A program made the translations under genes and the position numbers. The notes under the pieces were generated by a model. It ran no database searches. It was not told where the DNA came from and worked only from the letters and a program-made list of their open reading frames with translations. A stretch of 32,837 bases of DNA, taken from a bacterium. GTDB lineage: Bacteria; Electryoneota; RPQS01. Positions 2,850 through 26,994 of the stretch are shown piece after piece. Location: NCBI GenBank assembly GCA_026394155.1, contig JAPKYT010000056.1, positions 1 through 32,837 on the forward strand. The letters run 5' to 3'. Positions within the stretch are counted from its first letter, which is position 1. Every line of letters begins with the position of its first letter.

Positions 2850-3716
2850 GTGAGCGAGGATGCCATGAAGGTCAATCGTGTGATGAAATCCGCCGTCGCG
2901 GCCGCACTGCTGATGACCGCTTTTGCCTTGATGGCGGCGGAGTTGGGGCCGGTGATGGACCGCGACGAGGCGCTGGCTCGCCTGCGCGACGGCAACGCCC
3001 GCTTCGTGGCATCGGAGCCGCAGGCATGGAACGCGGGTTCGGAGAGGCGGCAAGAACTTGCCGCCGTGGGTCAGCATCCCATCGCCTGCATTGTCACCTG
3101 CTCGGATGCGCGCGTGCCGCCGGAGATTCTGTTTGACCAGTCGTTAGGCGATTTGTTTGTGGTGCGTCTGGCGGGAAACGTGGTGACGCCGGAAGTGGCC
3201 GCTTCGGTGGAATATGCGGTGGAACATCTGCGCGTGCCGGTGGTGATCGTGTTGGGTCATACGCATTGTGGCGCGATGCAGGCCGCGCTGGAAGCGGGCG
3301 ATCGGGAGACGGCCGGGCCGATGGGCGCATTGTTGGCACGTCTGCGCCGGGCCATCGAATCCGTGCGCGCCAAAGGTTTTGCGGAAGCGGAGCTGTATGA
3401 GGCGGCCATTAATGAGAATGCGCGGCTGGGCGCCGAAGAGCTCTTGCGCAGTTCGCGGGTGGTGGATGAAGCGGCGCAGTCGGGGCGCGTGACCCTGCTC
3501 AGCGCGGTCTATAATCTTTCTGACGGCACGGTTCAATGGCAGATGCAGCTCATGGCGGCGGTGGCTCCCGCCAAAGCCACGCCGCCCAGCGCGCGCGCGG
3601 AGATTCACGCCGACGAAACCAGCAAGCCGCCACAGGTGAGCGCAGTCAAGAACGAGGCCAAGCCGCAACGCAAAGCGGCGGAAGAGCCCGACACCTACGC
3701 GCGGCGTCATCGCTGA
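2850..3716 (+). CDS. Beta-class carbonic anhydrase with N-terminal signal/TM segment and Lys/Pro/Ala-rich C-terminal extension (start may be 2865)
   Basis: CSDARVPPEILFDQSLGDLFVVRLAGNVV and VVIVLGHTHCGAMQAA motifs; hydrophobic N-terminus SAVAAALLMTAFALMAAE. Confidence 0.9.
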   Translation: MSEDAMKVNRVMKSAVAAALLMTAFALMAAELGPVMDRDEALARLRDGNARFVASEPQAWNAGSERRQELAAVGQHPIACIVTCSDARVPPEILFDQSLGDLFVVRLAGNVVTPEVAASVEYAVEHLRVPVVIVLGHTHCGAMQAALEAGDRETAGPMGALLARLRRAIESVRAKGFAEAELYEAAINENARLGAEELLRSSRVVDEAAQSGRVTLLSAVYNLSDGTVQWQMQLMAAVAPAKATPPSARAEIHADETSKPPQVSAVKNEAKPQRKAAEEPDTYARRHR

Positions 3717-3754
3717 AGAGACCCCCCTTTTATCCCCCCGCGAGCAGGGGGAGA
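3714..3754 (+). repeat. A-family hairpin repeat beginning at the carbonic anhydrase stop codon
   Basis: TGAAGAGACCCCCCTTTTATCCCCCCGCGAGCAGGGGGAG. Confidence 0.75.
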
Positions 3755-4029
3755 CGATGCATGCGGGCGGCCCGATGGCCGCCCTTGACTTTTTTCCCTG
3801 TGGGCTCTATCTTTGAGACATGCGCTGAGCAGAACAGGCGCGTATCGCAGTCTGCTCTCGCTCACGAGTTCGGACATACAGTGGGAATGATGGATACCTT
3901 GGACAGCCAGCATACCACGGGCATCATATGTGGTCGACGCAGAGACAGTCACGGCTTCGTGGTTGTGGCATCGGATTCGGCGTACTCGGACACAAGCAGA
4001 TCGGAATTCAGCGTGAAGGAGAGACAGCC

Positions 4030-5007
4030 ATGAAAACGCAATCTCAGATTTGCAGCTGCTACCGCAGCTGTCATATGCTCCTGTGTCTGATCGCACTGCT
4101 GTTGTCCAAAGGCATCGTGTCCGGGCAGACTTTCGGGGATGCCGTTATGGGCTATGAACCGGAGGATGGGTTGGACGTCCCAGCGGCCGCAGCCTGCGCG
4201 TCGCCAAGCTGGCCCGATTCGGGATGCTTCAGTTTTCCGATCATGCTGCGAGGGCATCTACCGGGCATGGGCTATCCTATGCGCTGGGCCATCTTCGCCG
4301 GGCTGAACGACACAGTGGCGGCTTGGATCAATTTCTTCAATCGGACAGACAAGTCATACGCCCTGTCCGATAAGGATTGCGAGCACTGGTATGTTCCGCG
4401 TCTCTATCTCCTCGAAGCCATCGGGCCGGGGGCTGCACCTTTGGCTCAATCCGATAGTCTCGGTTACCGTGTCCGGGGATGGTTCGTGGGAAACGAAAGG
4501 GGCGAGCCACAATCGAAACTCCCGCCACTCCCCGACGGAGGCATGGGTCTGATGATGGACGTTTGGAATCTACCGCAGGGCCGCTTTCAGGTCTGCTTTG
4601 AACCCACTGAGAAGGTGCCGTCGGACTTCCGGGCGATGGGGGGCGGGCTGACCTACGAGTTCTATCCGCCGCGGTCTCTGGCCGACAGCGTCAACGCCTA
4701 TGAGGGGTGCTTCTGGCGGGCGATTTGGGACAAGGACTACGACGCTGCGGAAAAATGGGTGGATGCCATGCTGACAATCAACCCTACCTCCGTGCCCGGA
4801 AACTGGTTCAAGGCTTTTCGAGCGCTGGAAGTTCAGGATACCGCCACGGCCAAACAGGCTCTGGATGATGCCTTGAAGTACCTCAACGACCGCAGCGATC
4901 CGGCCATGCCCGATTCCACCGTGCGGCCCTTATTTCAGGCGGAGAAACTCTACTTGCAGGAGATGGAGAGAGTTCTGAGCGACAATCGCCGCAGGCTCGG
5001 CCCGTGA
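4030..5007 (+). CDS. Secreted hypothetical protein (ORF called from 3928; ATG at 4030 preferred)
   Basis: MKTQSQICSCYRSCHMLLCLIALLLSKGIVSGQ looks like a signal peptide preceded by GGAGAGA; no recognised domain in the rest. Confidence 0.65.
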   Translation: MKTQSQICSCYRSCHMLLCLIALLLSKGIVSGQTFGDAVMGYEPEDGLDVPAAAACASPSWPDSGCFSFPIMLRGHLPGMGYPMRWAIFAGLNDTVAAWINFFNRTDKSYALSDKDCEHWYVPRLYLLEAIGPGAAPLAQSDSLGYRVRGWFVGNERGEPQSKLPPLPDGGMGLMMDVWNLPQGRFQVCFEPTEKVPSDFRAMGGGLTYEFYPPRSLADSVNAYEGCFWRAIWDKDYDAAEKWVDAMLTINPTSVPGNWFKAFRALEVQDTATAKQALDDALKYLNDRSDPAMPDSTVRPLFQAEKLYLQEMERVLSDNRRRLGP

Positions 5008-5033
5008 GGCCACGCCAACTTCGCATTAAAACG

Positions 5034-5062
5034 CGCGGGCGGCTCTCAAGGCCGCCCGCATT
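5034..5062 (+). terminator. Hairpin downstream of the secreted hypothetical protein, possible terminator
   Basis: GCGGGCGGC-TCTCAAG-GCCGCCCGC perfect stem followed by ATTGTGTTT; weak T tract. Confidence 0.4.
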
Positions 5063-5108
5063 GTGTTTGAGAGACTCCGTTCGATGACGAAGCGAAGGAC
5101 ACGCGCGA

Positions 5109-5295
5109 CTATGCATTCATGTCCGACCACTTCCTGGCCATGCGGGCGAAGAGGATGAGCGCCAGCACCGCCTTGTCGCCGTATTGGCCGCAGAAGCAGC
5201 CCGCCAATTTCGAACCCACAAAGCCGCCAATGCCCACCGGGACGTTCACGTAGCCGAGTTAGAGACCTTTCTGCCCACGCGGGTCGAAGGCACAC
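5109..5295 (-). pseudogene. Remnant of a membrane transporter C-terminus (MFS-like)
   Basis: Reverse frame reads FDPRGQKGL*LGYVNVPVGIGGFVGSKLAGCFCGQYGDKAVLALILFARMARKWSDMNA*: transporter-like sequence with an in-frame stop and no intact upstream ORF. Confidence 0.45.
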
Positions 5296-11967: not shown

Positions 11968-13227
11968 ATGGCTGATAGCAAAATAGAGTTTGTCGCGCGC
12001 TCGTGCGACTGTTCGTGCCCCGATCCGCTGACATTTTTCGAACACGCCAGCGAACAGACATCATGCTCATTTTTCTGGAAGGGCCGGGACGACGAGGCGA
12101 TGTGGATGGGGTTCGGCTGCGTGGACAGCCTGAATTCCCTTGCGGAGTGCCGGGACGCTCTGAAGCGAATCGCACTCGACGACGCTCCTTTTGCAGCGCG
12201 CGGCTTTTGCGCCGTTCCTTTTGACTGCGATTTCCGGCCGGTCGCTCCGTGGGAATCCTTTCCGTCACGGCTGTTTATCGTGCCGCAGATTCAGGTGTGC
12301 TGGACGAACCAATCCGCGTCGCTTCTCTCTTTGCTGCCCGAGCCGGAAATCGAGACGTTGCGCAAGGCTCTGTCGAAGAGTCCGCCAGCCACGCCGCACC
12401 GCCTGTCCGTTCGAACCGTTTTGCAGACTCAGCACGGCGAATGGCGGCGCATGCTAAGCGCAATTCTGCCGGAACTGGAGCGGGGAGCGTTGCGAAAAGT
12501 GGTGCTGGCGCGCTCGGCCTCCGCGTTTGCCGACGAACCGATTCGCATGGGCGCGGTGCTGGCCGGACTGCTCGCGCAGGAAAGCTGTTCCGTCTTCGCA
12601 CTCCGCTCGGGCAACGACGTTTTTTTGGGAGCGTCACCGGAGCGGCTTTTTGCGCTGGACGGAGATAAGCTGACGACCGAAAGCCTTGCCGGAACGCGTC
12701 CCCGCGGGCGAACCGACCGCGAAGACCGGAAGCTGGCCGATGCGCTCTTAGAATCCGAGAAGGAACGGCGCGAGCACGACATTGTTCGCGAGTTCATCGC
12801 CTCGCGCCTCAATGCGCTCTGCGCGGCGCACGAAACGGATCAACCCGCCGTCCGCAAGCTGGCCACCGTGCAGCATCTCTATACCACCTTGCGCGGCACG
12901 CTTCGCGAAGGCGTGGGGCCCGATGAGGTGCTGAATGCGCTTCACCCGACACCGGCCGTGTGCGGCGATCCGCGCGACGCCGCAAGAGAACTGATCCGCC
13001 GGCTGGAAGCGACTCCACGCGGCTATTATGCGGGCGCGATCGGGTGGGTGGATGCAGGCCGGGCCGAGATGGCGGTGGCCATTCGCTGCGGACTTGTCAA
13101 AGGCAAGCGGGCGATTGTGTTCGCGGGCGCAGGCATCGTGGCCGGTTCGGATCCCGACGCGGAGTGGGAGGAGACCGAGAACAAGATGAGACCCTACTTG
13201 CAGGCGCTGGGCGGAGCGGACTCGTGA
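11968..13227 (+). CDS. menF: Isochorismate synthase
   Basis: Chorismate-binding motifs FLGASPERLF, LAGTRPRGRTDREDRKLADALLESEKERREHDIVREFI, HPTPAVCGDPRDAA, YYAGAIGWVDAGRAEMAVAIRCG; first gene of a men cluster. Confidence 0.93.
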   Translation: MADSKIEFVARSCDCSCPDPLTFFEHASEQTSCSFFWKGRDDEAMWMGFGCVDSLNSLAECRDALKRIALDDAPFAARGFCAVPFDCDFRPVAPWESFPSRLFIVPQIQVCWTNQSASLLSLLPEPEIETLRKALSKSPPATPHRLSVRTVLQTQHGEWRRMLSAILPELERGALRKVVLARSASAFADEPIRMGAVLAGLLAQESCSVFALRSGNDVFLGASPERLFALDGDKLTTESLAGTRPRGRTDREDRKLADALLESEKERREHDIVREFIASRLNALCAAHETDQPAVRKLATVQHLYTTLRGTLREGVGPDEVLNALHPTPAVCGDPRDAARELIRRLEATPRGYYAGAIGWVDAGRAEMAVAIRCGLVKGKRAIVFAGAGIVAGSDPDAEWEETENKMRPYLQALGGADS

Positions 13228-14957
13228 ATATCGTCAACGTCAATTTGCTGCAGGCGGCGGTTCTGCTGCGGCAACTGGTCGCGTGCGGCGCCAAGCGCGC
13301 GGTGATTTCGCCCGGCTCGCGCTCCACACCACTCGCGCTGACCGCGCACAACATGCCCGAGCTGCAAACGTACGTGCTCACCGATGAGCGCGCGGCGGGC
13401 TTCTTTGCACTCGGGCTTTCCAAGGCCGACGGCGCGCCCGCGATTCTCATCTGCACTTCGGGCACGGCGGCGGCCAATTATTTTCCCGCGATCATCGAGG
13501 CGGCTCAGTCCTGCGTGCCCCTGATCGCTCTCACCGCTGACCGCCCGGTGGCGCTGCGTGGACGCGGCGCGCCGCAGACCATCGAGCAAGTGCATCTCTA
13601 CGGCGGCTATCCGCGCTTCTTTGCCGACGTGCCGGAGGCGCGGCTCACGCTCGATCACATGCGATGCGTGCGCACGCTCTCATCGCAGGCGTATGCGGCG
13701 GCGATGTCCGTTCCGGCCGGGCCCGCGCATCTGAACGTGCCTATGGACGAGCCGATCGCGCCGATTCCGGAGCATCGAGACGAGGCCGAAGAGATTTGGC
13801 GGCAGATTGTGCTGGAGAGCGACATGCCTTTTCATCTGCAAACGTCGCAGCCGCCTGCGCAAGACACCGTGACCACCGCTTTGAAGCGCGTGAGCGCGGC
13901 TTTGTGCGGACTGATCGTCGCCGGACCCGACGCTGCGCGCACAGAGGACGAAGCTCAGGCGATTCATTTTCTCAGCCGCCGCTTGGGCTGGCCTGTGTTG
14001 GCCGACGTCACGAGCGGTTTGCGCTTTTTCGGCGAGCCGGTTCTGCCGTTTTATGATGTGTTTCTGCGCGAAGATTCGCTGGCCGCGCTTGCGCCGGATG
14101 TGGTGTTGGCTTTCGGCGCGCATCCGGTTTCGAATGCTTTGAATGCGTATCTCGACCGGCATCGCGTCGCTCACACCTTGCGCGTGCAACCGGATGCGCG
14201 GGGACGCGATCCCAATGCGCGCGCCCAAGAAACCGTGGTCGCCGATGTGGCCGCTTTCTGTCACGCGCTTTCCGCTCTGCTGCCCGTGTCGCGTGATTCC
14301 CTGCTTTACGAGCCATTCCGCGCGGCCTCGACGCGCCTTCGCGCTGCGCTGAACGCGGCCGATCCCGTGCTGTGTGAGGCGCATTTCGTCCGCGCCGCCG
14401 TGCGCTCGATGCCCGCGGATGCGAACGTCATTCTCGCCAACAGCCTTTCCGTTCGCTATGCGGATGCGCTTTGCGCCGCGGAAGGACAGGCGCATCGAGT
14501 GTTCGGCATGCGCGGAGCGAGCGGGATTGACGGCACGATCTCGCATGCTATGGGAATCGCCGCCGCCTCGCAGGTGCCCTCGCTTTTAGTGTGCGGCGAT
14601 CTGGCGTTTCTACATGATCTGAACGCTTTGGCCGCGGCGCGCTTGGCTGCCAACTTGACGATTTTGCTTCTCAACAATGACGGCGGCGGCATTTTCCACT
14701 TCTTGCCGCTGCACGGATGCGAAAACCGCGAGGTTTTCGAGGCGATCCACGGCACGCCGCATGGCTTGAATCTCGCGGCGGCGGCGGATCTCTTTGATGT
14801 GGAGTGGATGACCGCGCGATTCCCCGCTGATTTGCGCTCCCTGTTCGACCGTTCAAGGTCTCGATTGCGCGTGATCGAAGTGCGGACGTCGCGCGAAACG
14901 AATGCGCGGGCGCATGCCGCCCTGCTCAAACGTCTGCAGAAGGCTGCCGTGTCATGA
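13224..14957 (+). CDS. menD: SEPHCHC synthase (2-succinyl-5-enolpyruvyl-6-hydroxy-3-cyclohexene-1-carboxylate synthase); true start GTG 13224
   Basis: VISPGSRSTPLALTAHN, LTDERAAGFFALGLSKADGAPAILICTSGTAAANYFPAIIEA, NNDGGGIFHFLP; GTGA overlap with the menF stop. Confidence 0.95.
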   Translation: MNIVNVNLLQAAVLLRQLVACGAKRAVISPGSRSTPLALTAHNMPELQTYVLTDERAAGFFALGLSKADGAPAILICTSGTAAANYFPAIIEAAQSCVPLIALTADRPVALRGRGAPQTIEQVHLYGGYPRFFADVPEARLTLDHMRCVRTLSSQAYAAAMSVPAGPAHLNVPMDEPIAPIPEHRDEAEEIWRQIVLESDMPFHLQTSQPPAQDTVTTALKRVSAALCGLIVAGPDAARTEDEAQAIHFLSRRLGWPVLADVTSGLRFFGEPVLPFYDVFLREDSLAALAPDVVLAFGAHPVSNALNAYLDRHRVAHTLRVQPDARGRDPNARAQETVVADVAAFCHALSALLPVSRDSLLYEPFRAASTRLRAALNAADPVLCEAHFVRAAVRSMPADANVILANSLSVRYADALCAAEGQAHRVFGMRGASGIDGTISHAMGIAAASQVPSLLVCGDLAFLHDLNALAAARLAANLTILLLNNDGGGIFHFLPLHGCENREVFEAIHGTPHGLNLAAAADLFDVEWMTARFPADLRSLFDRSRSRLRVIEVRTSRETNARAHAALLKRLQKAAVS

Positions 14958-15784
14958 GGCACGCAAGCCCCGGCGGCATCGAGTGGAACTGCGAATGGCG
15001 CGGCCGCGAGTCCAAGCCGCTGCTGGCTCTGGTGCACGGCTTTGCGGGTTCTCTGAAAAGCTGGGACGATTTGACGCGGCATCTTGAGCAGCACTTTCGC
15101 TTGCTGCTTGTGGACCTCCCCGGACATGGTGGCACGCCGGTACCCGAGACAGCGATGACGCTCCGGGAACTCGGCACAACGTTAGGCGAATTTGTGCGCT
15201 CCGTCGCCGATGGAGCTGCGATGATGTGCGGCTACAGCATGGGCGGGCGCGTCACGTTGCACACGGCTCTCTTTTCACCCGAAGCGGTGTCTGCGCTTGT
15301 CCTCATGGGAGCCTCACCCGGAATTGAGGATGCGCGCGAACGCAAGGAGCGGCAGGCGAGCGATCAGGCGCTGGCGGAGAAGATTCTCGCCAACGGTATC
15401 GAACGGTTTGCGGACTATTGGGGATCATTGCCCTTGTTCGCATCACAGAACATGCTGCCGCCGGACATGCAAGCCGAACTGCGCGCGTCGCGTCTGGCCT
15501 GTGACCCGCAAGGGCTTGCGTACTGCCTCAAGAACTTCGGCACGGGCGAGCAGGAATTTCTCGCACGTAAACTGCATCGTCTTTCCTGTCCGGTTCTGCT
15601 GATGGCGGGCGCGCTCGACGAGAATTTTTCGCGCCTCAATCATCACATGGCGGCATCCATCGGCACACCGGCGGTTCGCGTGGTGGAGATTCCCAGAGCC
15701 GGGCACGCCGCGCACATTGAGAACCCCAAAGCTGTGGCGCGCGAGATCCTTTCATTTTCAGAAAACCTCAGGATAGAATCATGA
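14954..15784 (+). CDS. menH: SHCHC synthase, alpha/beta hydrolase
   Basis: [52 protein letters not shown] overlap with menD. Confidence 0.9.
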
Positions 15785-16602
15785 AATCATTCCCGTGGAA
15801 GTCCGCCGGAGAGTTTGCGGACATCTTGTACGAGAAGTGGAACGGCATCGCCAAAATCACCATCAACCGCCCCAAAGTGCGCAATGCTTTCCGGCCGCAA
15901 ACCATCGCCGACATGCAATGTGCGTTCTTGGATGCGCGCGAGGATCCGGAGATCGGCGTGGTGATTCTTACCGGCGCGGGAACGGCAGCGTTTTGTTCGG
16001 GCGGCGATCAGAAAATTCGCGGCGATCAGGGCTACGTGGGCGAGGACAAGGTGCCGCGCTTGAACGTGCTCGATCTGCAAAGGCAAATCCGCAGCCTGCC
16101 GAAAGTGGTGATTGCGATGGTGGCGGGTTATGCGATTGGCGGCGGGCACGTGCTGCACGTGGTGTGCGACCTCACCATTGCCGCCGACAACGCACGGTTT
16201 GGTCAAACCGGGCCGAAGGTCGGATCATTCGACGGCGGTTTCGGCGCGGGCTATCTGGCGCGCATTGTCGGTCACAAAAAGGCCAAGGAGATCTGGTTCT
16301 TGGGTCGTCACTACAGCGCAGAGGACGCTCTGGCGATGGGATTGGTGAACGCCGTCGTGCCGCTTGCGAAATTGGAGGAGACGACCGTGCAGTGGTGCCG
16401 CGAGATAATGGAAAAATCTCCGATGGCGATTCGCTGCTTGAAGGCGGCCTTCAACGCGGAAACCGACGGCGAGGCGGGGATTCAAGAGCTGGCCGGCAAC
16501 ACGACTCTCCTTTATTACATGACCGAAGAAGCGCAGGAAGGCCGCGAAGCGTTCAAACAAAAACGCAAGCCGGATTTTAAGAAGTTCAAGCGAGTGCCGT
16601 GA
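15781..16602 (+). CDS. menB: 1,4-dihydroxy-2-naphthoyl-CoA synthase
   Basis: [89 protein letters not shown] are MenB signatures. Confidence 0.97.
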
Positions 16603-16610
16603 AAAACAAA

Positions 16611-16638
16611 AGCTGAAAGCTGAAAGCTGAAAGCTGAA
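16611..16638 (+). repeat. Heptanucleotide tandem repeat (AGCTGAA)x4
   Basis: Direct reading, immediately downstream of menB. Confidence 0.9.
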
Positions 16639-16676
16639 AGGGGAGCCGGCAGGTAGTGCCGCACGGCAGTGCGCTC

Positions 16677-16720
16677 CAGAGACCCCCTTTTGTCCCCCTA
16701 CTGAAGTAGGGGGAGAGAGA
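16677..16720 (+). repeat. A-family hairpin, near-identical direct copy of 16870-16913
   Basis: CAGAGACCCCCTTTTGTCCCCCTACTGAAGTAGGGGGAGAGAGA. Confidence 0.8.
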
Positions 16721-16840
16721 CTGTCCATGAAAGAGAACCAAGCGGGGCAGGCGAAGAACGAAGACGCGTGCCACCGCGAGTGAAGACCTTAACCCGGCTC
16801 GGCGCACCTGGCGGTGTTCGCGTTGCTCGGACTCGGGTTC

Positions 16841-16868
16841 CATCGTTCATCATTCATCGTTCATCATT
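16841..16868 (+). repeat. Heptanucleotide tandem repeat CATCGTT/CATCATT alternating x4
   Basis: CATCGTT CATCATT CATCGTT CATCATT. Confidence 0.9.
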
Positions 16869-16869
16869 T

Positions 16870-16948
16870 CAGAGACCCCCTTTTGTCCCCCCACTGAAGT
16901 AGGGGGAGAGAGATCTTCGCCGTTGTCGGTCTACAGACCGGCAATGGC
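16870..16948 (+). repeat. A-family hairpin (16870-16913) followed by C-family hairpin (16919-16948)
   Basis: CAGAGACCCCCTTTTGTCCCCCCACTGAAGTAGGGGGAGAGAGA; GCCGTTGTCGGTC-TACA-GACCGGCAATGGC. Confidence 0.8.
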
Positions 16949-17006
16949 CCAGAGATGAACTGTCGGTAAAGAAAATCGAAAAACGGTTAAGCCAACGGAA
17001 AGCAGC

Positions 17007-19094
17007 GTGACGCTTTGTGACGAGTGCCTCGCGTTTTTGCGGCGCGGACTGAATGACAAGACCGCGTCCTTTCGCGACGGACAATGGGAGGCCATTGCCG
17101 GCGTGGTGGAGAAGCGCGCAAAGCTCTTAGTCGTGCAGCGCACCGGCTGGGGTAAGAGCATGGTCTACTTCGTGGCCACGCGCGTGCTGCGCGACCGCTC
17201 CGCCGGACCGACGCTGCTCATTTCGCCGCTGCTCGCTCTCATGCGCAATCAGATTCTGGCCGCCGAGCGACTGCAACTTCGCGCCGCCACCATCAACTCG
17301 AGCAATCCTGAAGACTGGCCCGAGGTGATGAACAGCCTGAATCGAAACGAAGTGGATTTGTTGATGGTGTCCCCGGAACGGCTCGCCAATGAGCAGTTCA
17401 GCCGCGATGTCCTACCGGGTCTCATCCGCCGCACCGGCTTGCTGGTCATTGACGAAGCTCACTGCATTTCCGACTGGGGACATGACTTTCGTCCGGATTA
17501 CCGGCGCATCGTCAAGATCGTGAAGTCGTTGCCGCCGGGCATTCCCGTTCTGGCCACGACGGCCACCGCCAACGACCGGGTGATCGAGGACATCGTCGCG
17601 CAACTTGGCAAAGAGTTAGTGGTGTCGCACGGGCATCTGGCCCGAGACTCGCTCCGCCTGCAGGTCATTCGCCTTCCCGGTCAGGCCGCGCGCATGGCGT
17701 GGCTGGCGGATACGCTTCCTTATCTGAGCGGCAGCGGCATCGTTTACACGCTGACCGTGCGCGACGCGAAGCATGTGGCGGAGTGGTTGCGAACGCGCGG
17801 CGTCAACGCACATGCCTATTACGGCGAGTTGGAAACCGCGCGGCGCGAAGAGTTAGAAACGCAGCTGCTCGACAACCGGGTCAAAGCGCTGGTGGCGACG
17901 TCGGCGCTGGGCATGGGCTACGACAAGCCCGATCTGACTTTCGTTATTCACTTCCAGCGGCCGGCCTCGGTGGTGCATTACTATCAGCAGGTGGGACGAG
18001 CGGGGCGCGCGGTGGAGAACGCCTACGGCATTCTCCTCTGCGGCGAAGAGGATGACGAAATCGCCGAATATTTCATGCGCACCGCTTTGCCGCCGCGCGA
18101 GCACGTGGACATGCTTCTGGCCGCGCTGGCCGTCGAGAAGGATGGTGCAAGCATGCGAACTCTCGAACGGCGGCTCAATCTCTCGTACACCCAAATTCAG
18201 AAGGTACTCACTTTGTTGGCGGTCGAAGAGCCGCCGGTGGTGGTGAAGAAGGACGCGCAGTGGATTCTCAAGCGCCGTGACTACGTGGCGAACTCAGAGT
18301 TGTGGGACCGGCTGTTAGCGATCAGACGGCGCGAGCAGGAGCGCATGCAGACGTATATGACCACGCGCGAGTGCCTGATGATGTTTCTGCGCTCGGAGCT
18401 TGACGATCCCGCCGCGACTCCCTGCGGCAAGTGCGCGAATTGCACGAGCCAGCCGGTGCTGGCGGAGAGCTATTCCATGAAAGAGGCGACGGCGGCCGTG
18501 CAATTCCTGCGACATTGCGAGGAGCCCATCGAGGCGCGAAAAATCTGGCCGCAGGATGCGCTGGCCGCCCATGAATGGAAGGGCAAGATTGCTCCCGAGC
18601 TTCTCGCCGAGGATGGACGGGTGTTGTGTCGCTGGGGAGATGCGGGCTGGGGCGAGATGGTGGCACGAGACAAGATATTCGGCGCAAAGTTCGACGAGGC
18701 TCTGGTGGACGGCGCGGCCGCCATGATCCGTGATCGCTGGAAGCCGCGGCCTTTTCCGGAATGGGTGACCTGCGTGCCGTCGCTTCGTCGCGCCGAATTA
18801 GTGCCGGATTTCGCCGCACGTCTCGCGGGAAAGTTGAGCCTTCCCTTTGTGGACTGTGTGCGGAAGATGCGCGAGAATCCGCCGCAAAAAGCCATGCAGA
18901 ACAGCTATCAGCAATCGCGCAATCTGGCCGGCGTGTTCGGCGTTGACCCGGCCAAGGTTCGCTCGTCGCCGCTCCTTTTGGTAGATGACATGGTGGACTC
19001 GGGTTGGACGTTTACCGTTATTGCCGCGCTGCTGCGTCAGGCCGGAAGCGGTGCTGTTTTCCCGCTGGCTCTGGCGCGTTCCACATCCAAGTAA
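17007..19094 (+). CDS. RecQ-family ATP-dependent DNA helicase fused to a C-terminal ComF-like phosphoribosyltransferase domain (GTG start)
   Basis: TGWGKSMVY, LLVIDEAHCISDWGHDFRPDYRR, HFQRPASVVHYYQQVGRAGRA; Zn cluster C-x17-CGKCANC; C-terminal PRPP-binding motif LLLVDDMVDSGWT. No HRDC domain recognised. Confidence 0.92.
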   Translation: MTLCDECLAFLRRGLNDKTASFRDGQWEAIAGVVEKRAKLLVVQRTGWGKSMVYFVATRVLRDRSAGPTLLISPLLALMRNQILAAERLQLRAATINSSNPEDWPEVMNSLNRNEVDLLMVSPERLANEQFSRDVLPGLIRRTGLLVIDEAHCISDWGHDFRPDYRRIVKIVKSLPPGIPVLATTATANDRVIEDIVAQLGKELVVSHGHLARDSLRLQVIRLPGQAARMAWLADTLPYLSGSGIVYTLTVRDAKHVAEWLRTRGVNAHAYYGELETARREELETQLLDNRVKALVATSALGMGYDKPDLTFVIHFQRPASVVHYYQQVGRAGRAVENAYGILLCGEEDDEIAEYFMRTALPPREHVDMLLAALAVEKDGASMRTLERRLNLSYTQIQKVLTLLAVEEPPVVVKKDAQWILKRRDYVANSELWDRLLAIRRREQERMQTYMTTRECLMMFLRSELDDPAATPCGKCANCTSQPVLAESYSMKEATAAVQFLRHCEEPIEARKIWPQDALAAHEWKGKIAPELLAEDGRVLCRWGDAGWGEMVARDKIFGAKFDEALVDGAAAMIRDRWKPRPFPEWVTCVPSLRRAELVPDFAARLAGKLSLPFVDCVRKMRENPPQKAMQNSYQQSRNLAGVFGVDPAKVRSSPLLLVDDMVDSGWTFTVIAALLRQAGSGAVFPLALARSTSK

Positions 19095-19098
19095 GATC

Positions 19099-20073
19099 GT
19101 GAGAGCATCTGTGATAAACGATTCTACGCGCGCATCCCTGCTGCTGTGTGCAGTGCTTGCGGGTGACAAACAACTTCCGCTTGCTCCCCTCTCAACGGGG
19201 GAGTATCATCGCTTGCTGGTGGCTCTCAAAGCAATCGAGAGTGAGGTTGCGTCGCTCATCGGCGAGGGTGGTCTGCCGACTCTCGAAGGACTGGCCGCGG
19301 CCGGTTGGGATCGCGAAAGGCTCTCCTTGCTTCTGGCGCGCGAGGCGGAGTTGGACAGAGCCATCGAGCTTTGGGCGCAGATCGAATTGAAAGTCATTTG
19401 TTGCCTTGACGAAGAGTACCCCGCTCGCTTGCGCGAGCGCCTGCGCACAGCGGCTCCTCCGGTGCTTTTCGTCGTGGGGAGCGGTGAGCTTCTGGCGCGC
19501 GGAGGATTAGCCATTGTCGGTTCGCGGAACACGGATGAAGCAGCTTTGAAATTTACCGCTGAGCTGGCAAGTCTTTGCGCGGAGCAGGACGTGACCGTGA
19601 TTTCAGGCGGCGCGCGCGGCGTGGATCAGACGGCGATGCTGGCTACTCTCGAAGCGAACGGCTCTGCCCTCGGAATCTTGGCGGATAGTCTGGCCCGCGA
19701 AGCCGTCTCGGAGAAATACGCGGTGCACCTTGACCGCGGTCATGTGACGCTTGCCTCATCGTGTTCGCCCGAGGCTCCGTTCTCGGTGGGAAACGCGATG
19801 AGCCGCAACAAGCTCATCTACGCGCTGTCGGACGCCGCCTTGGTGGTGAGTGCGGAAGCGCAGACCGGTGGCACGTGGCACGGCGCGGTGGAGAATCTAA
19901 AGCAAAAGTGGACGCCTTTGATTGTGCGGCGTGACGATTCGACGCCTCGCGGCAACGATCTTCTCATCCGGCGCGGCGGCATCGCCTTCGATCCGGAGGA
20001 ACTCAACTCGAAGTTGGACATTCGCGCGTGGTTTGCGGCGCGTCCCGACGCTGGCGGATTGTCGCTGTTTTAA
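19099..20073 (+). CDS. DprA/Smf-like (SLOG/Rossmann) DNA-processing-type protein; GTG start at 19099 or 19111
   Basis: GLAIVGSRNTDEAALKFTAELASLCAEQDVTVISGGARGVDQTAMLATLEANGSALGILAD..., NAMSRNKLIYALSDAALVVSAEAQTGGTWHGAVE; starts 4 nt after the RecQ-PRT stop. Confidence 0.88.
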   Translation: MRASVINDSTRASLLLCAVLAGDKQLPLAPLSTGEYHRLLVALKAIESEVASLIGEGGLPTLEGLAAAGWDRERLSLLLAREAELDRAIELWAQIELKVICCLDEEYPARLRERLRTAAPPVLFVVGSGELLARGGLAIVGSRNTDEAALKFTAELASLCAEQDVTVISGGARGVDQTAMLATLEANGSALGILADSLAREAVSEKYAVHLDRGHVTLASSCSPEAPFSVGNAMSRNKLIYALSDAALVVSAEAQTGGTWHGAVENLKQKWTPLIVRRDDSTPRGNDLLIRRGGIAFDPEELNSKLDIRAWFAARPDAGGLSLF

Positions 20074-20087
20074 GAATAAGTAAGACG

Positions 20088-20198
20088 GGCGCATCGCCAT
20101 GCGCCCCTACAGTGGTTTGATCATATGTTGTAGGGGCGGAAGGCGTTCCGCCCGCCATGAATCAATCCTCAACAACGGGCGCATCGCCATGCGCCCCA
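20088..20198. repeat. Three G-family REP-like hairpins (20088-20110 +, 20130-20156 -, 20176-20198 +)
   Basis: GGGCGCAT-CGCC-ATGCGCCCCTACA; TGTAGGGGCGGAA-GGCG-TTCCGCCC; GGGCGCAT-CGCC-ATGCGCCCC. Confidence 0.85.
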
Positions 20199-20205
20199 CA
20201 AGAAA

Positions 20206-21084
20206 ATGCCTTCTCTCGATAATTGGATTCTGGCCGCGAGGCCGAAGACGTTGGTGGCGGCGGTGGTGCCGGTGATCGTGGGAGCCGCGTATGCCAAGCA
20301 AGCCGCGCTCGAACACTGGCCGTTTGCGCTGTGCGCGGCTCTGTCGGCTCTGTGTATTCAAATCGGAACGAACCTCGCCAACGACTACAGCGATTTCAGA
20401 CGCGGGGCCGACACATCGCAGCGCATCGGGCCGGTGCGCGTGACGCAAGCCGGACTCATCGCACCGCAGCACGTGAAGAACGGAGCGATTCTATCTTTTT
20501 CGCTGGCGGTGGGATTCGGAATTCCGCTCATCGCGCGCGGCGGTCTCCCCATTCTGCTCATCGGCGTGCTTAGCATTCTCTGCGGTTGGCTTTACACCGG
20601 CGGCCCGTTTCCTCTCGGTTACAACGGACTCGGGGAGCTCTTTGTGCTGCTCTTTTTCGGATTCGCGGCGGTAGCGGGCACGCATTTTGTTCTCACACTC
20701 GAGTGGAATCCGCTGGCGCTCTTCATCGCACTGGCTCCGGGACTGCATGCCTCGGCGCTGTTGGCCGTGAACAACGTGCGCGACCTCGAGACCGACCGCG
20801 CGGCAGGGAAACGCACGCTGGCAGCGCACTTCGGCAGGACCTTCGGACGCGCGGAGTTTGCGCTGCTGACACTCCTCCCCTTCTTCGTGCCGGTAGCCCT
20901 GTTTTTCATTTTTCATTTCTCCTATCTCGTTTTGCTTCCCGTGCTTTCGTTGCCGCTGGCCATGCCGCCCTTGCTTACAGCCCTGACGCGTGAGGACGGG
21001 CCGAGTTTGATTTCCGCTCTGGCCGGAACTGCGCGTTTGCAGCTCGTGTTCGGAGTTCTTCTTGCCGCCGGGCTTGTGTTGTGA
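20206..21084 (+). CDS. menA: 1,4-dihydroxy-2-naphthoate polyprenyltransferase
   Basis: LAARPKTLVAAVVPVIVGAAYA, QIGTNLANDYSDFRRGADTSQRIGPVRVTQAGLI, NNVRDLETDRAAGKRTLAAHFGR. Confidence 0.96.
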   Translation: MPSLDNWILAARPKTLVAAVVPVIVGAAYAKQAALEHWPFALCAALSALCIQIGTNLANDYSDFRRGADTSQRIGPVRVTQAGLIAPQHVKNGAILSFSLAVGFGIPLIARGGLPILLIGVLSILCGWLYTGGPFPLGYNGLGELFVLLFFGFAAVAGTHFVLTLEWNPLALFIALAPGLHASALLAVNNVRDLETDRAAGKRTLAAHFGRTFGRAEFALLTLLPFFVPVALFFIFHFSYLVLLPVLSLPLAMPPLLTALTREDGPSLISALAGTARLQLVFGVLLAAGLVL

Positions 21085-22151
21085 TTATCACTCACCTCAC
21101 GTTCTCGGCCGCCGAGCTGCCGTTGATCACGCCGCTGCTCACTGCGCGCGGAGCGATGAGGTCGCGGCGGATTCTCCTGGTGACTTTGCACAGCGGAGAT
21201 CTCTACGGCACGGGCGAGGCAGCTCCGCTGCCGGAGCACGGAACGGAGCCGTTTGATTTGGCCTTCGATATCATCGCGCGACTGGCGAACCGCCGCCACT
21301 TTCCTCCCTTGCCGCGCGGGCTCGGCGCTTTCGACGGGTGGCTGACAGAAGTGGGCGTATCGCGCGCGTTCGCGCCCACCGCGGCGTGGGCCGTGGAGTG
21401 CGCGATGGCCTCGCTTTTGGCGCAGAATCGCCGCACGCAAATCTGTTCTCTTCTGAGCGCTTCTGTTGTCCGACGTATTCCGGTCGCGCGGCTGATCAGC
21501 GGCGAGACAAGCGGCGAGATAGTATGGGCCGTGGAACAGGCCGTGAAGCTCGGCTACGGAACGGTCAAGATCAAGCTGGGTCGGCGTTCGGTGGTGCAAG
21601 AGATTGATACGATCCGAAAACTCCGCGAGCGTTTTGAAGACCGCGTCGCCATCCGCGTGGACGCCAACGAGGAATGGTCGCTGGGACATGCGCTGGAGTT
21701 CTGCCGAGGAGTACTCGACTGCCGGCTCGAATACATCGAGGATCCGCTGCGCGAGCCGACGCCCGAGAGACTGCTCCTGCTCAAAGCCGCTTCGCCGGTG
21801 CCGATCGCTCTCGATCAGTTTGCCAACGATCCGGAGCGGTTCGAACAGATTCTTGCGCAGCGACTTTGCCGCGTGGTGGTGCTTAAGCCCGCGGTGATTG
21901 GTTCCTTCTCTCTGGTCAAGCGCATGGTGCGCAAAGCGCGTGGGCGCAAGATCTCCGTGGTGTTCTCCAATCTGATCGAATCGAGCATCGGCCTCGGCTA
22001 TGCGGCGGCGTGCGCGGCGGCTCTGGGAAGCCGCCGCTATGCGCATGGGCTGGCTACGGCGAGCCTGTTGGCCAAAGACACGGTGGAGCGGCCGCTGACA
22101 CCTCTGCGCGGCATGATCCGGCTGTCCGATTTGCGGTTGCTCACGAGCTGA
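21081..22151 (+). CDS. menC: o-succinylbenzoate synthase (enolase superfamily)
   Basis: TVKIKLG (K-x-K), AIRVDANEEWS, LEYIEDPL, PIALDQF, VVLKPAVIGSF; overlaps the menA stop. Confidence 0.93.
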   Translation: MIITHLTFSAAELPLITPLLTARGAMRSRRILLVTLHSGDLYGTGEAAPLPEHGTEPFDLAFDIIARLANRRHFPPLPRGLGAFDGWLTEVGVSRAFAPTAAWAVECAMASLLAQNRRTQICSLLSASVVRRIPVARLISGETSGEIVWAVEQAVKLGYGTVKIKLGRRSVVQEIDTIRKLRERFEDRVAIRVDANEEWSLGHALEFCRGVLDCRLEYIEDPLREPTPERLLLLKAASPVPIALDQFANDPERFEQILAQRLCRVVVLKPAVIGSFSLVKRMVRKARGRKISVVFSNLIESSIGLGYAAACAAALGSRRYAHGLATASLLAKDTVERPLTPLRGMIRLSDLRLLTS

Positions 22152-22162
22152 CGGCGATCACA

Positions 22163-23578
22163 ATGCTGACCTTTGCATCAACCGCGCTGCCCGACGAGCA
22201 GTTCAATCACAAGACCGAGCAGATGGCGATGCTTCTCGCCGAGCGCTTTCCCGAACGCGGATCGCACGTCGGGCTGTGGGGCGAGAATAGTCCGGACTAT
22301 TTGGTGGCGCTCTTTGCGCTGATGCGGGCCGGGCACGTGGCGGTGCCGCTGCAAACGCGTCTAACGGCGCGGGAATTAGCGGACGTCGTGCGCAGCGCGG
22401 GCTTGCAGGGAATTCTGGCCGCGCGCGCGTTTCCGCAAACGCATCGCGACGTGTTGGGCGACGTGCCCGTGCATCCACTGCCCCCGAGCTTCGAAAGTCC
22501 CCCGCCGCTCAATGAATTGAAGGTGCTCGGCAAGGAGGAGGTGGCGGTTATCTTGTGCAGCAGCGGCAGCGCAGGACAGGCAAAGATGATTCCGCTCACA
22601 CTGCGTTCACTGCTCGATCATGCGCGCGCGGTCTGCGAACATCTCAAAGTAACGCGGCACGACACATGGCTGGTGTGTTTGCCTTTCTATCATATCGGCG
22701 GCCTTGCCATCGCCTTTCGCTGTCTGTTGTCGGAAGCATCGCTGGTCATTGCGGAGAGCGCCGATGCGGGCGAGATCAACCGTATCCTTGACAACGGCGA
22801 CGCGAGCCTCGTCTCCGTGGTGCCGACGTTGTTAGAGCGCATGCTGACCGCGCGCCAAGGTGCGCCTTACCCGAAATCCCTGCGGGCCATTATCGTGGGA
22901 GGCGGGCCGGTGCCGGCGGAACTTCTAACACGCTGTCCGCAGGCCTACGCGACCTACGGTCTCACCGAAGCGGGTTCGATGGTGACCGGCGCGCGGCCGG
23001 GTTGCGGCGATAAGGAGCGCAAGACCTGCGGGCCGCCGATCCCGCAAACGCAAATCCGAATTTTGAACGAAGCGGGAGAAGAGGCGAAGCGGGGGGGGGC
23101 AGGAGAGATTGTGGTGCGGGGAGCGGGAGCAGCGCAGACCTATTGGGGAGACCGGGAAGCCGCCGCCCAGACATTTCGCGCCGGGTGGATTCACACGGGC
23201 GATCTGGGCCGCTTGGATGAGAATGGTTTTCTGACTGTCGAAGCGCGGCGCACGAATTTGATCGTATCCGGCGGAGAGAACATGTATCCGGCGGAGATCG
23301 AGGCCGCCTTGTGCGAGCACCCGCGCATCGTGGAGGCGGCGGTGCTGCCGGTGGACGATGCAAAATGGGGGCAGACCCCGGGAGCTTTGGTCGTGCTATC
23401 GCCGGGCCCTCTCCTGCAAAAGAGTCACATCTACAGTTTTCTTGCCGGGCGGCTGGCGCGCTACAAGTTTCCGCGCAAAATCGTCATCGCCGAAAAGATT
23501 CCGCGGCTGGGCAACGGCAAACCTGACTTGAGAGAGGTGCGAAAGCTGCTCACGGAAGGAGAAGACGCACCGGCCTGA
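22163..23578 (+). CDS. menE: o-succinylbenzoate-CoA ligase (ANL superfamily); preferred start ATG 22163
   Basis: ILCSSGSAGQAKMIPLT, YATYGLTEAGSMV, GWIHTGDLGRLDENGFLTVEARRTNLIVSGGENMYPAEIE, IPRLGNGKPDLREV. Confidence 0.93.
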   Translation: MLTFASTALPDEQFNHKTEQMAMLLAERFPERGSHVGLWGENSPDYLVALFALMRAGHVAVPLQTRLTARELADVVRSAGLQGILAARAFPQTHRDVLGDVPVHPLPPSFESPPPLNELKVLGKEEVAVILCSSGSAGQAKMIPLTLRSLLDHARAVCEHLKVTRHDTWLVCLPFYHIGGLAIAFRCLLSEASLVIAESADAGEINRILDNGDASLVSVVPTLLERMLTARQGAPYPKSLRAIIVGGGPVPAELLTRCPQAYATYGLTEAGSMVTGARPGCGDKERKTCGPPIPQTQIRILNEAGEEAKRGGAGEIVVRGAGAAQTYWGDREAAAQTFRAGWIHTGDLGRLDENGFLTVEARRTNLIVSGGENMYPAEIEAALCEHPRIVEAAVLPVDDAKWGQTPGALVVLSPGPLLQKSHIYSFLAGRLARYKFPRKIVIAEKIPRLGNGKPDLREVRKLLTEGEDAPA

Positions 23579-25230: not shown

Positions 25231-26994
25231 TTAGCGCAGGAGCAGGAGCTTGCCTGTGGTGAGGCGGCCAGCGGCTTCCAAGCGGACCAGATACATGCCG
25301 GTGGCGGCGTCCATCCCGCGGGCGTCGCGGCCGTCCCAAATCGCTCGGTGCTCGCCGGCGGCCATCGGGGCCGAGACCAGCGTGCGCACCTCTTGACCAA
25401 GCGTGTTGTAGAGCGTCAAATTCACCGCCGCTTCGCGCGGCAGCACATAGCGAAGAGTGGTGGAACTGTTGAAGGGATTCGGATACCCGTCCAGAAGGGC
25501 GAAGTTCTCCGCGCCGCCGAGCGCGGGTTCGGGAGCCGCCGCGGGAGGAGCGACATGGATTTCCCAGCTCACTAACTCGCCTTCGTCGCCGAACTCCCAG
25601 TCGTAGATCACCAGCCGCCACGTCCCCTGCGCATTCTGACCGTCAACAACGGAAAGCGGCTCCTCGGGAATGAAAGAACCGGTGAAGGGGGGAGTCCCAT
25701 CTCCGATAGGAGTCGTGGCTTCATCGTCGAAGATGGTGTTGGTGTAGTTCGCGCTGTCCGCACCGTGGTGGGCGGAAAGCACAACCGTGTCGTTCTGCGG
25801 TGAGACCAGCGCCAGCCAGAGATCGCTGTCGTAGGAGTGCAAGATATTCAGTTGCACGTCCAGATCGCTAATGGTCAAAGAGGTGTCCACCTGCAGGGTG
25901 GAAACCGTGGTGTCCTGATCCGTGATAGTCTGGGGCACATCGCTGGAAACAAAGATGAACATGCCTTGCCACGCGAGTGTGAAGTTCATCTCGGTCGAAC
26001 CGCCGCTGTTCACGGTTACGTTGGGGATCGTATGGCTGAGGTAACCGGCGCGGGAGGCGGTCATGCTGTAGGTGCCCACGCCGACCATCGGAAAGGCGTA
26101 GTCGCCGTCGGTGTCGGTTTGGGTGCTAATGGCAAGTTCGTTGATGGTGACGGTTGCCAGCGAAACCGGCAGGCTGCGGTCGTCATGCACCACGCCGAAG
26201 ATGACGCCGGTCGGTCCGGGGTAGAACCAGATCGCCAAATTATTCACCGGCTGATGGCCGGTGGCGTTGCAAACGTACTGGAGCCTCGGGCCGGTGCCGC
26301 CGCTCTGAAGACCGATGGTCTGCGACTGTGGTTCGAGGTTGAAAAGCCGGTTGTACTGCATCTTGATGAGGCCATCAGCCCAGAGAATGACCTCAAACTT
26401 GTAGGATGTGTTGTCGGCCAAGGCATGCCCCACCGAGTCCCACTCCACCACGATGTGGTCTCCGAAGTCCCGGAAGGCGATCGTGCGGTCGCCGCCCGGA
26501 TCGTAGCCGCCGTTGTCGAGATGCAGATCGTCCCACAGAACGCAGATCATCCGCCCGCCGATGGCCTCCGAGGACAGACAGTCATTGCTGTAGGCGGTGT
26601 TCAACGTTTGAAACTGAAGGTTGCCGTTGGTACTGACCACGATCTGACGATAGGACAGGCCGTAGATGGGGAAATCGAAGGTGAGCGGGACGATCGTCAC
26701 ATTGTCGTCCGGATCGTTACTGAAGTCCAGCCACGTGGCGGCCGGATCGCCCCGCAGCTCGACCCAACTGTAAGTGGCGGTGTCGCCGCCCTGATTGTCC
26801 ACGTAGTGATAGCCGAATGCGTCGGGCCCGCCCTGATTATCCAGAGAGTGACCGCCACGCGCATCCGGCCTCAAGGTCGCAGCCTGACGCGGGTGCTTGG
26901 AAGTGCTAATCTTCGACGGAGCTGCAAATAGGCTGGTGGCGGTCACCAGCCCCAAAATCGCGGTCCACAGCGCGAGCTTATGCGCGATCCTCAA
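25231..26994 (-). CDS. Secreted multidomain protein: carboxypeptidase-regulatory-like domain, P-domain-like (proprotein convertase) domain, T9SS/FlgD-like C-terminal sorting domain; TTG start with GGAGG SD
   Basis: Signal peptide; GVIFGVVHDDRSLPVSLATVTINEL...TDTDGDYAFPMVGVGTYSMTASRAGY; IPEEPLSVVDGQNAQGTWRLVIYDWEFGDEGELVSWEIHV; GYPNPFNSSTTLRYVLPREAAVNLTLYNTLGQEVRTL...GMYLVRLEA. Confidence 0.88.
   Translation of the reverse strand: MRIAHKLALWTAILGLVTATSLFAAPSKISTSKHPRQAATLRPDARGGHSLDNQGGPDAFGYHYVDNQGGDTATYSWVELRGDPAATWLDFSNDPDDNVTIVPLTFDFPIYGLSYRQIVVSTNGNLQFQTLNTAYSNDCLSSEAIGGRMICVLWDDLHLDNGGYDPGGDRTIAFRDFGDHIVVEWDSVGHALADNTSYKFEVILWADGLIKMQYNRLFNLEPQSQTIGLQSGGTGPRLQYVCNATGHQPVNNLAIWFYPGPTGVIFGVVHDDRSLPVSLATVTINELAISTQTDTDGDYAFPMVGVGTYSMTASRAGYLSHTIPNVTVNSGGSTEMNFTLAWQGMFIFVSSDVPQTITDQDTTVSTLQVDTSLTISDLDVQLNILHSYDSDLWLALVSPQNDTVVLSAHHGADSANYTNTIFDDEATTPIGDGTPPFTGSFIPEEPLSVVDGQNAQGTWRLVIYDWEFGDEGELVSWEIHVAPPAAAPEPALGGAENFALLDGYPNPFNSSTTLRYVLPREAAVNLTLYNTLGQEVRTLVSAPMAAGEHRAIWDGRDARGMDAATGMYLVRLEAAGRLTTGKLLLLR

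Follow-up and report, generated by a model that had tools for sequence, protein, structure and literature searches.

What is a gene for a RecQ-like helicase with a C-terminal phosphoribosyltransferase (PRTase) domain, followed by a gene for a DprA-like protein, doing between menB and menA? The pair lies in the window, by which we mean the whole 32,837-nt stretch of DNA that was analysed, and its combination of helicase–PRTase and DprA-like features is far beyond chance. Judged from their sequences, the two genes belong to the PsyrTA/RqlHI toxin–antitoxin family, which is already known, and we consider it likely that they form a two-gene toxin–antitoxin system of this type, a candidate anti-phage or anti-mobile-element module that forms accessory cargo in the menB–menA interval. 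Beyond the known family, the analysis adds that this interval is a variable gene slot and, of greater weight, that PsyrA tails resembling sliding-clamp-binding motifs recur across the family. Both genes were confirmed on the + strand with a gap of 4 nt (TAA GATC GTG), and the features of the pair were as follows.

17007–19094, + strand: psyrT/rqlH-like gene with a GTG start, encoding a RecQ-family helicase of 695 aa with a C-terminal PRTase domain, the predicted toxin (PADLOC, AF2, tree)
17076–18011, + strand: RecQ helicase core, residues 24–335, with Walker A TGWGKS (46–51), DEAH (149–152) and arginine fingers QQxxRAGR (Pfam; motifs invariant in 48/48 homologues)
18372–18443, + strand: RecQ-type four-Cys zinc motif, C456-x16-C473-x2-C476-x2-C479 (sequence motif)
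18474–19091, + strand: C-terminal region with a predicted type I PRTase-fold domain, residues 490–695 (AF2, Foldseek, profile)
18972–19010, + strand: PRPP-loop motif LLLVDDMVDSGWT, residues 656–668 (translation; conservation in 48 homologues)
19099–20073, + strand: psyrA/rqlI-like gene with a GTG start, encoding a DprA-like SLOG protein of 324 aa, a short form without C-terminal HTH, the predicted antitoxin/sensor (PADLOC, Pfam)
19378–19974, + strand: DprA/SLOG Rossmann domain of PsyrA (Pfam)
20056–20070, + strand: C-terminal GLSLF of PsyrA, a putative, degenerate (Q to G) clamp-binding-like peptide (comparison with other PsyrA)

The initial annotation had noted a resemblance to PsyrTA/RqlHI, and this was borne out by profile matches that covered both proteins at nearly full length. 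The psyrT product scored 949 bits against the PADLOC PsyrT model (residues 6–694) and the psyrA product 332 bits against the PsyrA model (residues 6–312), and at 76 of the 80 homologous loci, which come from many phyla, the DprA-like gene followed the helicase gene as it does in the window. All-versus-all clustering of 862 neighbour ORFs returned PsyrT, PsyrA, type I restriction–modification (RM) genes and a few other genes, the last two kinds each at fewer than 10 loci; recurrent extra partner genes were rejected because only PsyrT and PsyrA recurred widely. In E. coli, the pair is a two-gene cassette located between gntU and yhgN/asd or between hsdS and hsdR (type I restriction); HsdR-like neighbours occurred at 9 of 83 loci, and in genome G011 the pair adjoins an Eco57I-type RM enzyme. 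No defence genes adjoin the window copy, the neighbours of which are metabolic and the composition of which is not foreign, and these points were counted against the defence/toxin–antitoxin reading. The phage records searched gave partial helicase-core matches only and no PsyrT.

The RecQ-type core that had been noticed in the helicase was recovered with Pfam (DEAD, 77.9 bits; Helicase_C, 61 bits), as was the claimed zinc motif with its four cysteines, and no HRDC domain was detected in PsyrT at E ≤ 1, in agreement with the earlier reading. The AF2 model of full-length PsyrT had a pLDDT of 90.7. Residues K50 (Walker A), D149 (DEAH) and D660, D661 and D664 (PRPP loop) are present and conserved, and mutants of their counterparts in RqlH, the Walker A Lys, DEAH Asp and PRPP-loop Asp, have been studied (PMC4670107). 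Among 48 homologues, D660, W667 and T668 were invariant, which agrees with the PRPP-binding motif proposed for the C-terminus, and D661 and D664 were nearly so. The zinc cysteines were kept in 40 of the same 48 proteins; all four were lost jointly in the remaining 8, so that some lineages do without the zinc site.

A PRTase fold at the C-terminus of PsyrT was examined in several ways. The Pfam Pribosyltran model scored 23.7 bits, slightly under its cut-off of 26.3; a profile built from 46 sequences of the domain matched PDB entries of PRPP synthetases and of PurF; and an AF2 model of the domain (pLDDT 96.2) matched, in Foldseek, APRT, H. pylori ComF, PurF and the ShosT structures 8zvb/8zvd. 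The fold is thus predicted by modelling as well as by profile.

The second gene starts with GTG at 19099, 4 nt after the helicase gene as had been claimed, and its product matched the Pfam DNA_processg_A family (PF02481) with 125.6 bits. The Rossmann core had been said to differ from that of housekeeping DprA, and indeed the protein reached only 95.7 bits, well under the dprA equivalog cut-off of 191 (TIGR00732), for which reason we call it DprA-like rather than DprA. PsyrA proteins occur in two forms, a short one (28 of the 82 in our set) and a long one with a C-terminal HTH, which is missing from the window protein as it ends at 324 aa. The HTH does not define the family, since short forms make up this share of the set and RqlI works without its HTH (PMC4670107).

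We infer that the window pair works like RqlHI, in which RqlI binds the PRTase domain of RqlH and neutralises its toxicity, and the PRTase residues of RqlH (DIVD663) are required for toxicity and cause genotoxicity and SOS induction in E. coli (PMC4670107). By analogy with those experiments, the function of the pair is most likely a PRTase-dependent genotoxicity that is kept in check by the DprA-like protein. PsyrA, as a DprA-like SLOG protein, would bind the PRTase domain of PsyrT and restrain the toxin, and loss of this restraint would permit PRTase activity that damages DNA, induces the SOS response and arrests growth. The PRTase might act on a base or nucleotide that lies on the DNA unwound by the helicase or close to it; PsyrA would sense DNA and possibly the clamp, with its clamp-binding-like tail placing it at replication forks, and the trigger would be phage or plasmid interference. 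Restraint by PsyrA is not universal, because rqlH occurs without rqlI in many Gram-positive bacteria (PMC4670107). An anti-phage role of the window PsyrTA is plausible but unproven: phage protection was not detectable for the PsyrTA of E. coli NILS69 (PMC12409345), a ShosTA-type pair of DprA and PRTase confers protection from T7 and lambda (PMC9122126), and it is the family association with this ShosTA-type protection that makes defence plausible for PsyrTA.

What PsyrA might sense is suggested by its tail. QxxLF-type motifs resembling sliding-clamp-binding peptides were found in PsyrA tails from at least seven phyla. Because the motif class had been spotted in the data ahead of the counting, the test is exploratory; shuffles, background ORFs and canonical DprAs served as controls. 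Within the last 15 residues, the motif occurred in 16 of 28 short-form PsyrA, where 1000 shuffles gave a mean of 0.7 and a maximum of 5, and in 26 of 82 PsyrA of all forms, where shuffles gave a mean of 1.4 and a maximum of 7. The corresponding figures were 4 of 444 among the other ORFs of the loci and none among 35 canonical same-phylum DprAs. Typical short-form peptides were QLSLL, QLSFF, QPSLF, QPNLF, QGALF, QMGLF and QTSIF; Pseudomonas proteins end in QLGLGLD, and in enterobacterial long forms the linker upstream of the HTH contains QADLF, QTDLF, QVDLF or QPELF. The bacterial sliding-clamp-binding consensus is QL[S/D]LF or QxxLF, together with a six-residue form (PMC12309361; PMC13254535), and these peptides match it, among them QLSLL, QLSFF, QPSLF, QMGLF, QLGLGL and QADLF. 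Among ShosA-like intermediates of the same phylum (L140–L147), the tails included QISLL, QTRLAL, TLPLF and DLFK-like peptides, 2 of the 8 matching the regular expression, and clamp-like tails may therewith extend beyond PsyrA to ShosA-like proteins.

These tails raise the foremost alternative, which we regard as tentative: that PsyrA tethers the helicase–PRTase toxin to the DnaN clamp of the host through the QxxLF motif that recurs at its C-terminus or in its linker, and that the toxin is freed when this clamp is lost or remodelled, for instance by a phage. Such docking extends the best explanation and does not exclude the toxin–antitoxin reading. It draws on the enrichment just described, on the presence of DnaN in the host genome and on the varying position of the motif (C-terminal in short forms, in the pre-HTH linker in enterobacterial ones), as expected of a linear motif that evolves repeatedly. 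However, 29 of 54 long-form tails had no match, and the regular expression also matched the folded part of 54 of the 82 PsyrA, so that we used the position-specific enrichment alone. The window protein itself ends in GLSLF without the glutamine, and the tails of its relatives in genomes G003 and G009 read ELTLF (ELTLFDE), which together point to loss of the glutamine in the host's family. DnaE3 polymerases have clamp-binding peptides with conservation limited to xxxLF (PMC12309361), and whether the GLSLF tail binds the clamp is uncertain.

Published truncations of RqlI bear on this alternative as well. QPELF corresponds to residues 320–324 of the 400-aa E. coli RqlI (ABU 83972), and RqlI 1–320, which ends at the Q of QPELF if the F11 and ABU 83972 proteins are assumed to be alike, still neutralises RqlH (PMC4670107); the motif is thus not needed for inhibition. 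This suggests that the tail motif, if functional, would serve localisation or targeting to the fork, or sensing, rather than inhibition. In the literature that was searched, which lay largely outside subscription journals, no paper was found that links DprA-like antitoxins to the clamp. If the PsyrA tail does bind DnaN, the widespread PsyrTA/RqlHI family would have a concrete sensor target in the replication fork, and the clamp-motif-like tails make this replisome-sensing model testable.

The toxin–antitoxin reading also has to be weighed against a role in ordinary cell biology, for which the genomic setting of the pair is informative. The pair splits a menaquinone operon (menF-menD-menH-menB / psyrTA / menA-menC-menE), the parts of which are:

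11968–16602, + strand: upstream half of the operon, with menF (11968–13227), menD (12960–14957), menH (14954–15784) and menB (15781–16602) (NCBIfam)
16603–17006, + strand: menB–psyrT spacer of 404 nt, with two 44-nt direct repeats at 16677–16720 and 16870–16913 (sequence)
20206–23578, + strand: downstream half of the operon, with menA (20206–21084), menC (21081–22151) and menE (22010–23578) (NCBIfam)

Relatives of the host differ in what they carry at this position. In G003, psyrTA follows menB at the same site, and the PsyrT proteins of G003 and the window are sisters in the tree (support 100/97). In G009 (locus L125, G009:C134 ~3527–5188, minus strand), the same menB site holds an intact psyrA and a psyrT stub of about 35 residues. 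In place of psyrT, G009 has a 179-aa ORF with HNH-nuclease-like motifs (CxxC...MDHIIPK...CCSEC) and no Pfam match, located ahead of psyrA, an arrangement that could possibly represent a toxin swap or an orphan antitoxin. The slot of G005 contains an MGH1/trehalase-like gene together with the beginning of psyrT, which runs into the contig edge. G001, of the same genus as the host, lacks psyrTA, as do most family members; in G001, G007 and G010 the slot holds trkH-like genes, in G004 and G008 PMT_2-type membrane proteins (glycosyltransferases), and a pentapeptide protein is among the other occupants, while in G002 menB and menA are adjacent, 18 bp apart. The menB–menA interval is, accordingly, a variable gene slot in the host's family. 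Because it holds varied genes or none in relatives, several of which keep psyrTA there, psyrTA is best regarded as accessory cargo and not as part of menaquinone synthesis. The slot also shows modules settling within core metabolic operons and then decaying, with the toxin lost and the antitoxin kept.

Several further observations were made around the slot. In G004 (L119, G004:C145 4957–5052 and 6693–6800), the last ~90 nt of menB are found on both sides of the PMT_2-like insert (83% identity over 83 nt), as if the 3' end of menB had served as the insertion site. The window psyrTA is flanked by repeat pairs, the 44-nt one upstream (98% identical) and a 23-nt palindromic one, GGGCGCATCGCCATGCGCCC, at 20085–20107 and 20175–20197 (100%), and both look like dispersed intergenic repeats. 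No sigma-70-like promoter match was present on the + strand of the menB–psyrT spacer, and a promoter and terminator scan of the locus performed no better than shuffles. The GC contents of psyrT and psyrA (62 and 61%) are close to that of the host (61%) and GC3 is also host-like, for which reason a foreign island defined by composition was rejected. Further downstream, 25231–26994 on the minus strand encodes a protein of 587 aa which has a T9SS-type sorting tail and resembles an anammox S-layer glycoprotein model.

With this setting in view, the pair might be a domesticated unit of ordinary fork or recombination repair in the host lineage, perhaps replacing a lost RecQ, and have no part in defence, which we judge improbable. 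The initial annotation had raised the case that these could be the only recQ and dprA of the genome; this does not hold for dprA, as a separate canonical copy lies on contig C54, and stands in part for recQ, since PsyrT is the sole RecQ-family helicase recovered and no conventional RecQ was found in the host MAG, which is, however, just 88% complete. Relatives G002 and G008 do have a conventional RecQ. The inheritance of the pair at the same site as in G003 and its host-like GC would also suit domestication, but its patchy occurrence and the decay of psyrT in G009 do not. Moreover, PsyrT scored 282 bits against the 640-bit RecQ equivalog cut-off, and a tree built from the cores of 56 PsyrT and 12 conventional RecQ proteins separated the two by a long branch (4.18 changes per site, support 100/100), placing PsyrT outside housekeeping RecQ. 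By these scores, the DprA score given above and the tree, a housekeeping RecQ/DprA pair was ruled out. A link to menaquinone, in which the men operon site would couple expression of the pair to anaerobic respiration, is very unlikely and was rejected as the main reading: the pair does lie in the men operon and the growth defect of delta-rqlI E. coli is worst in microaerobic growth, with a link to anaerobic respiration speculated upon (PMC4670107), but the same slot holds unrelated genes (TrkH, PMT_2, MGH1/trehalase-like hydrolase, pentapeptide protein) or nothing in relatives, and no men neighbours recurred in 80 other loci.

Returning to the reading of the pair as a PsyrTA/RqlHI-type toxin–antitoxin system, its likenesses to other families can be placed as follows. 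DpdF, the helicase of the Dpd 7-deazaguanine defence system, was the second-best PADLOC family for the window helicase (up to 297 bits), but the bit score with the PsyrT model was three times as high, and the gene had no other Dpd genes next to it; given the far higher PsyrT score, a Dpd or BREX helicase was ruled out. With housekeeping RecQ, PsyrT shares the helicase core and the four-Cys zinc motif, and it differs in the lack of HRDC, its low equivalog score, its separate clade and its fused PRTase. Likewise, PsyrA has the DprA Rossmann (SLOG) domain of canonical DprA/Smf, and differs in its equivalog score and in its short, different tail. ShosTA follows the same toxin/antitoxin logic as PsyrTA, PsyrA matches ShosA (91 bits) and the C-terminal model of PsyrT matches ShosT; however, PsyrA scores far higher with its own model, and the window PRTase is fused to a helicase, whereas ShosT is a stand-alone PRTase not reported as a helicase fusion.

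The closest likeness is to PsyrTA and RqlHI themselves. PsyrTA was reportedly described by Sberro in 2013 as a RecQ–PRTase toxin with a DprA-like antitoxin. RqlHI was described in the same terms by Russell & Mulvey in 2015 (PMC4670107). The window pair shares with both the two-gene order, the near-full-length profile matches and the DprA-like partner, and its PsyrT shares with RqlH the RecQ helicase, the zinc motif and the predicted PRTase, including a D-D-x-x-D-S motif that corresponds to DIVD663. Unlike RqlHI, it has a short PsyrA without the C-terminal HTH, a degenerate clamp-motif-like tail and a site within a menaquinone operon.
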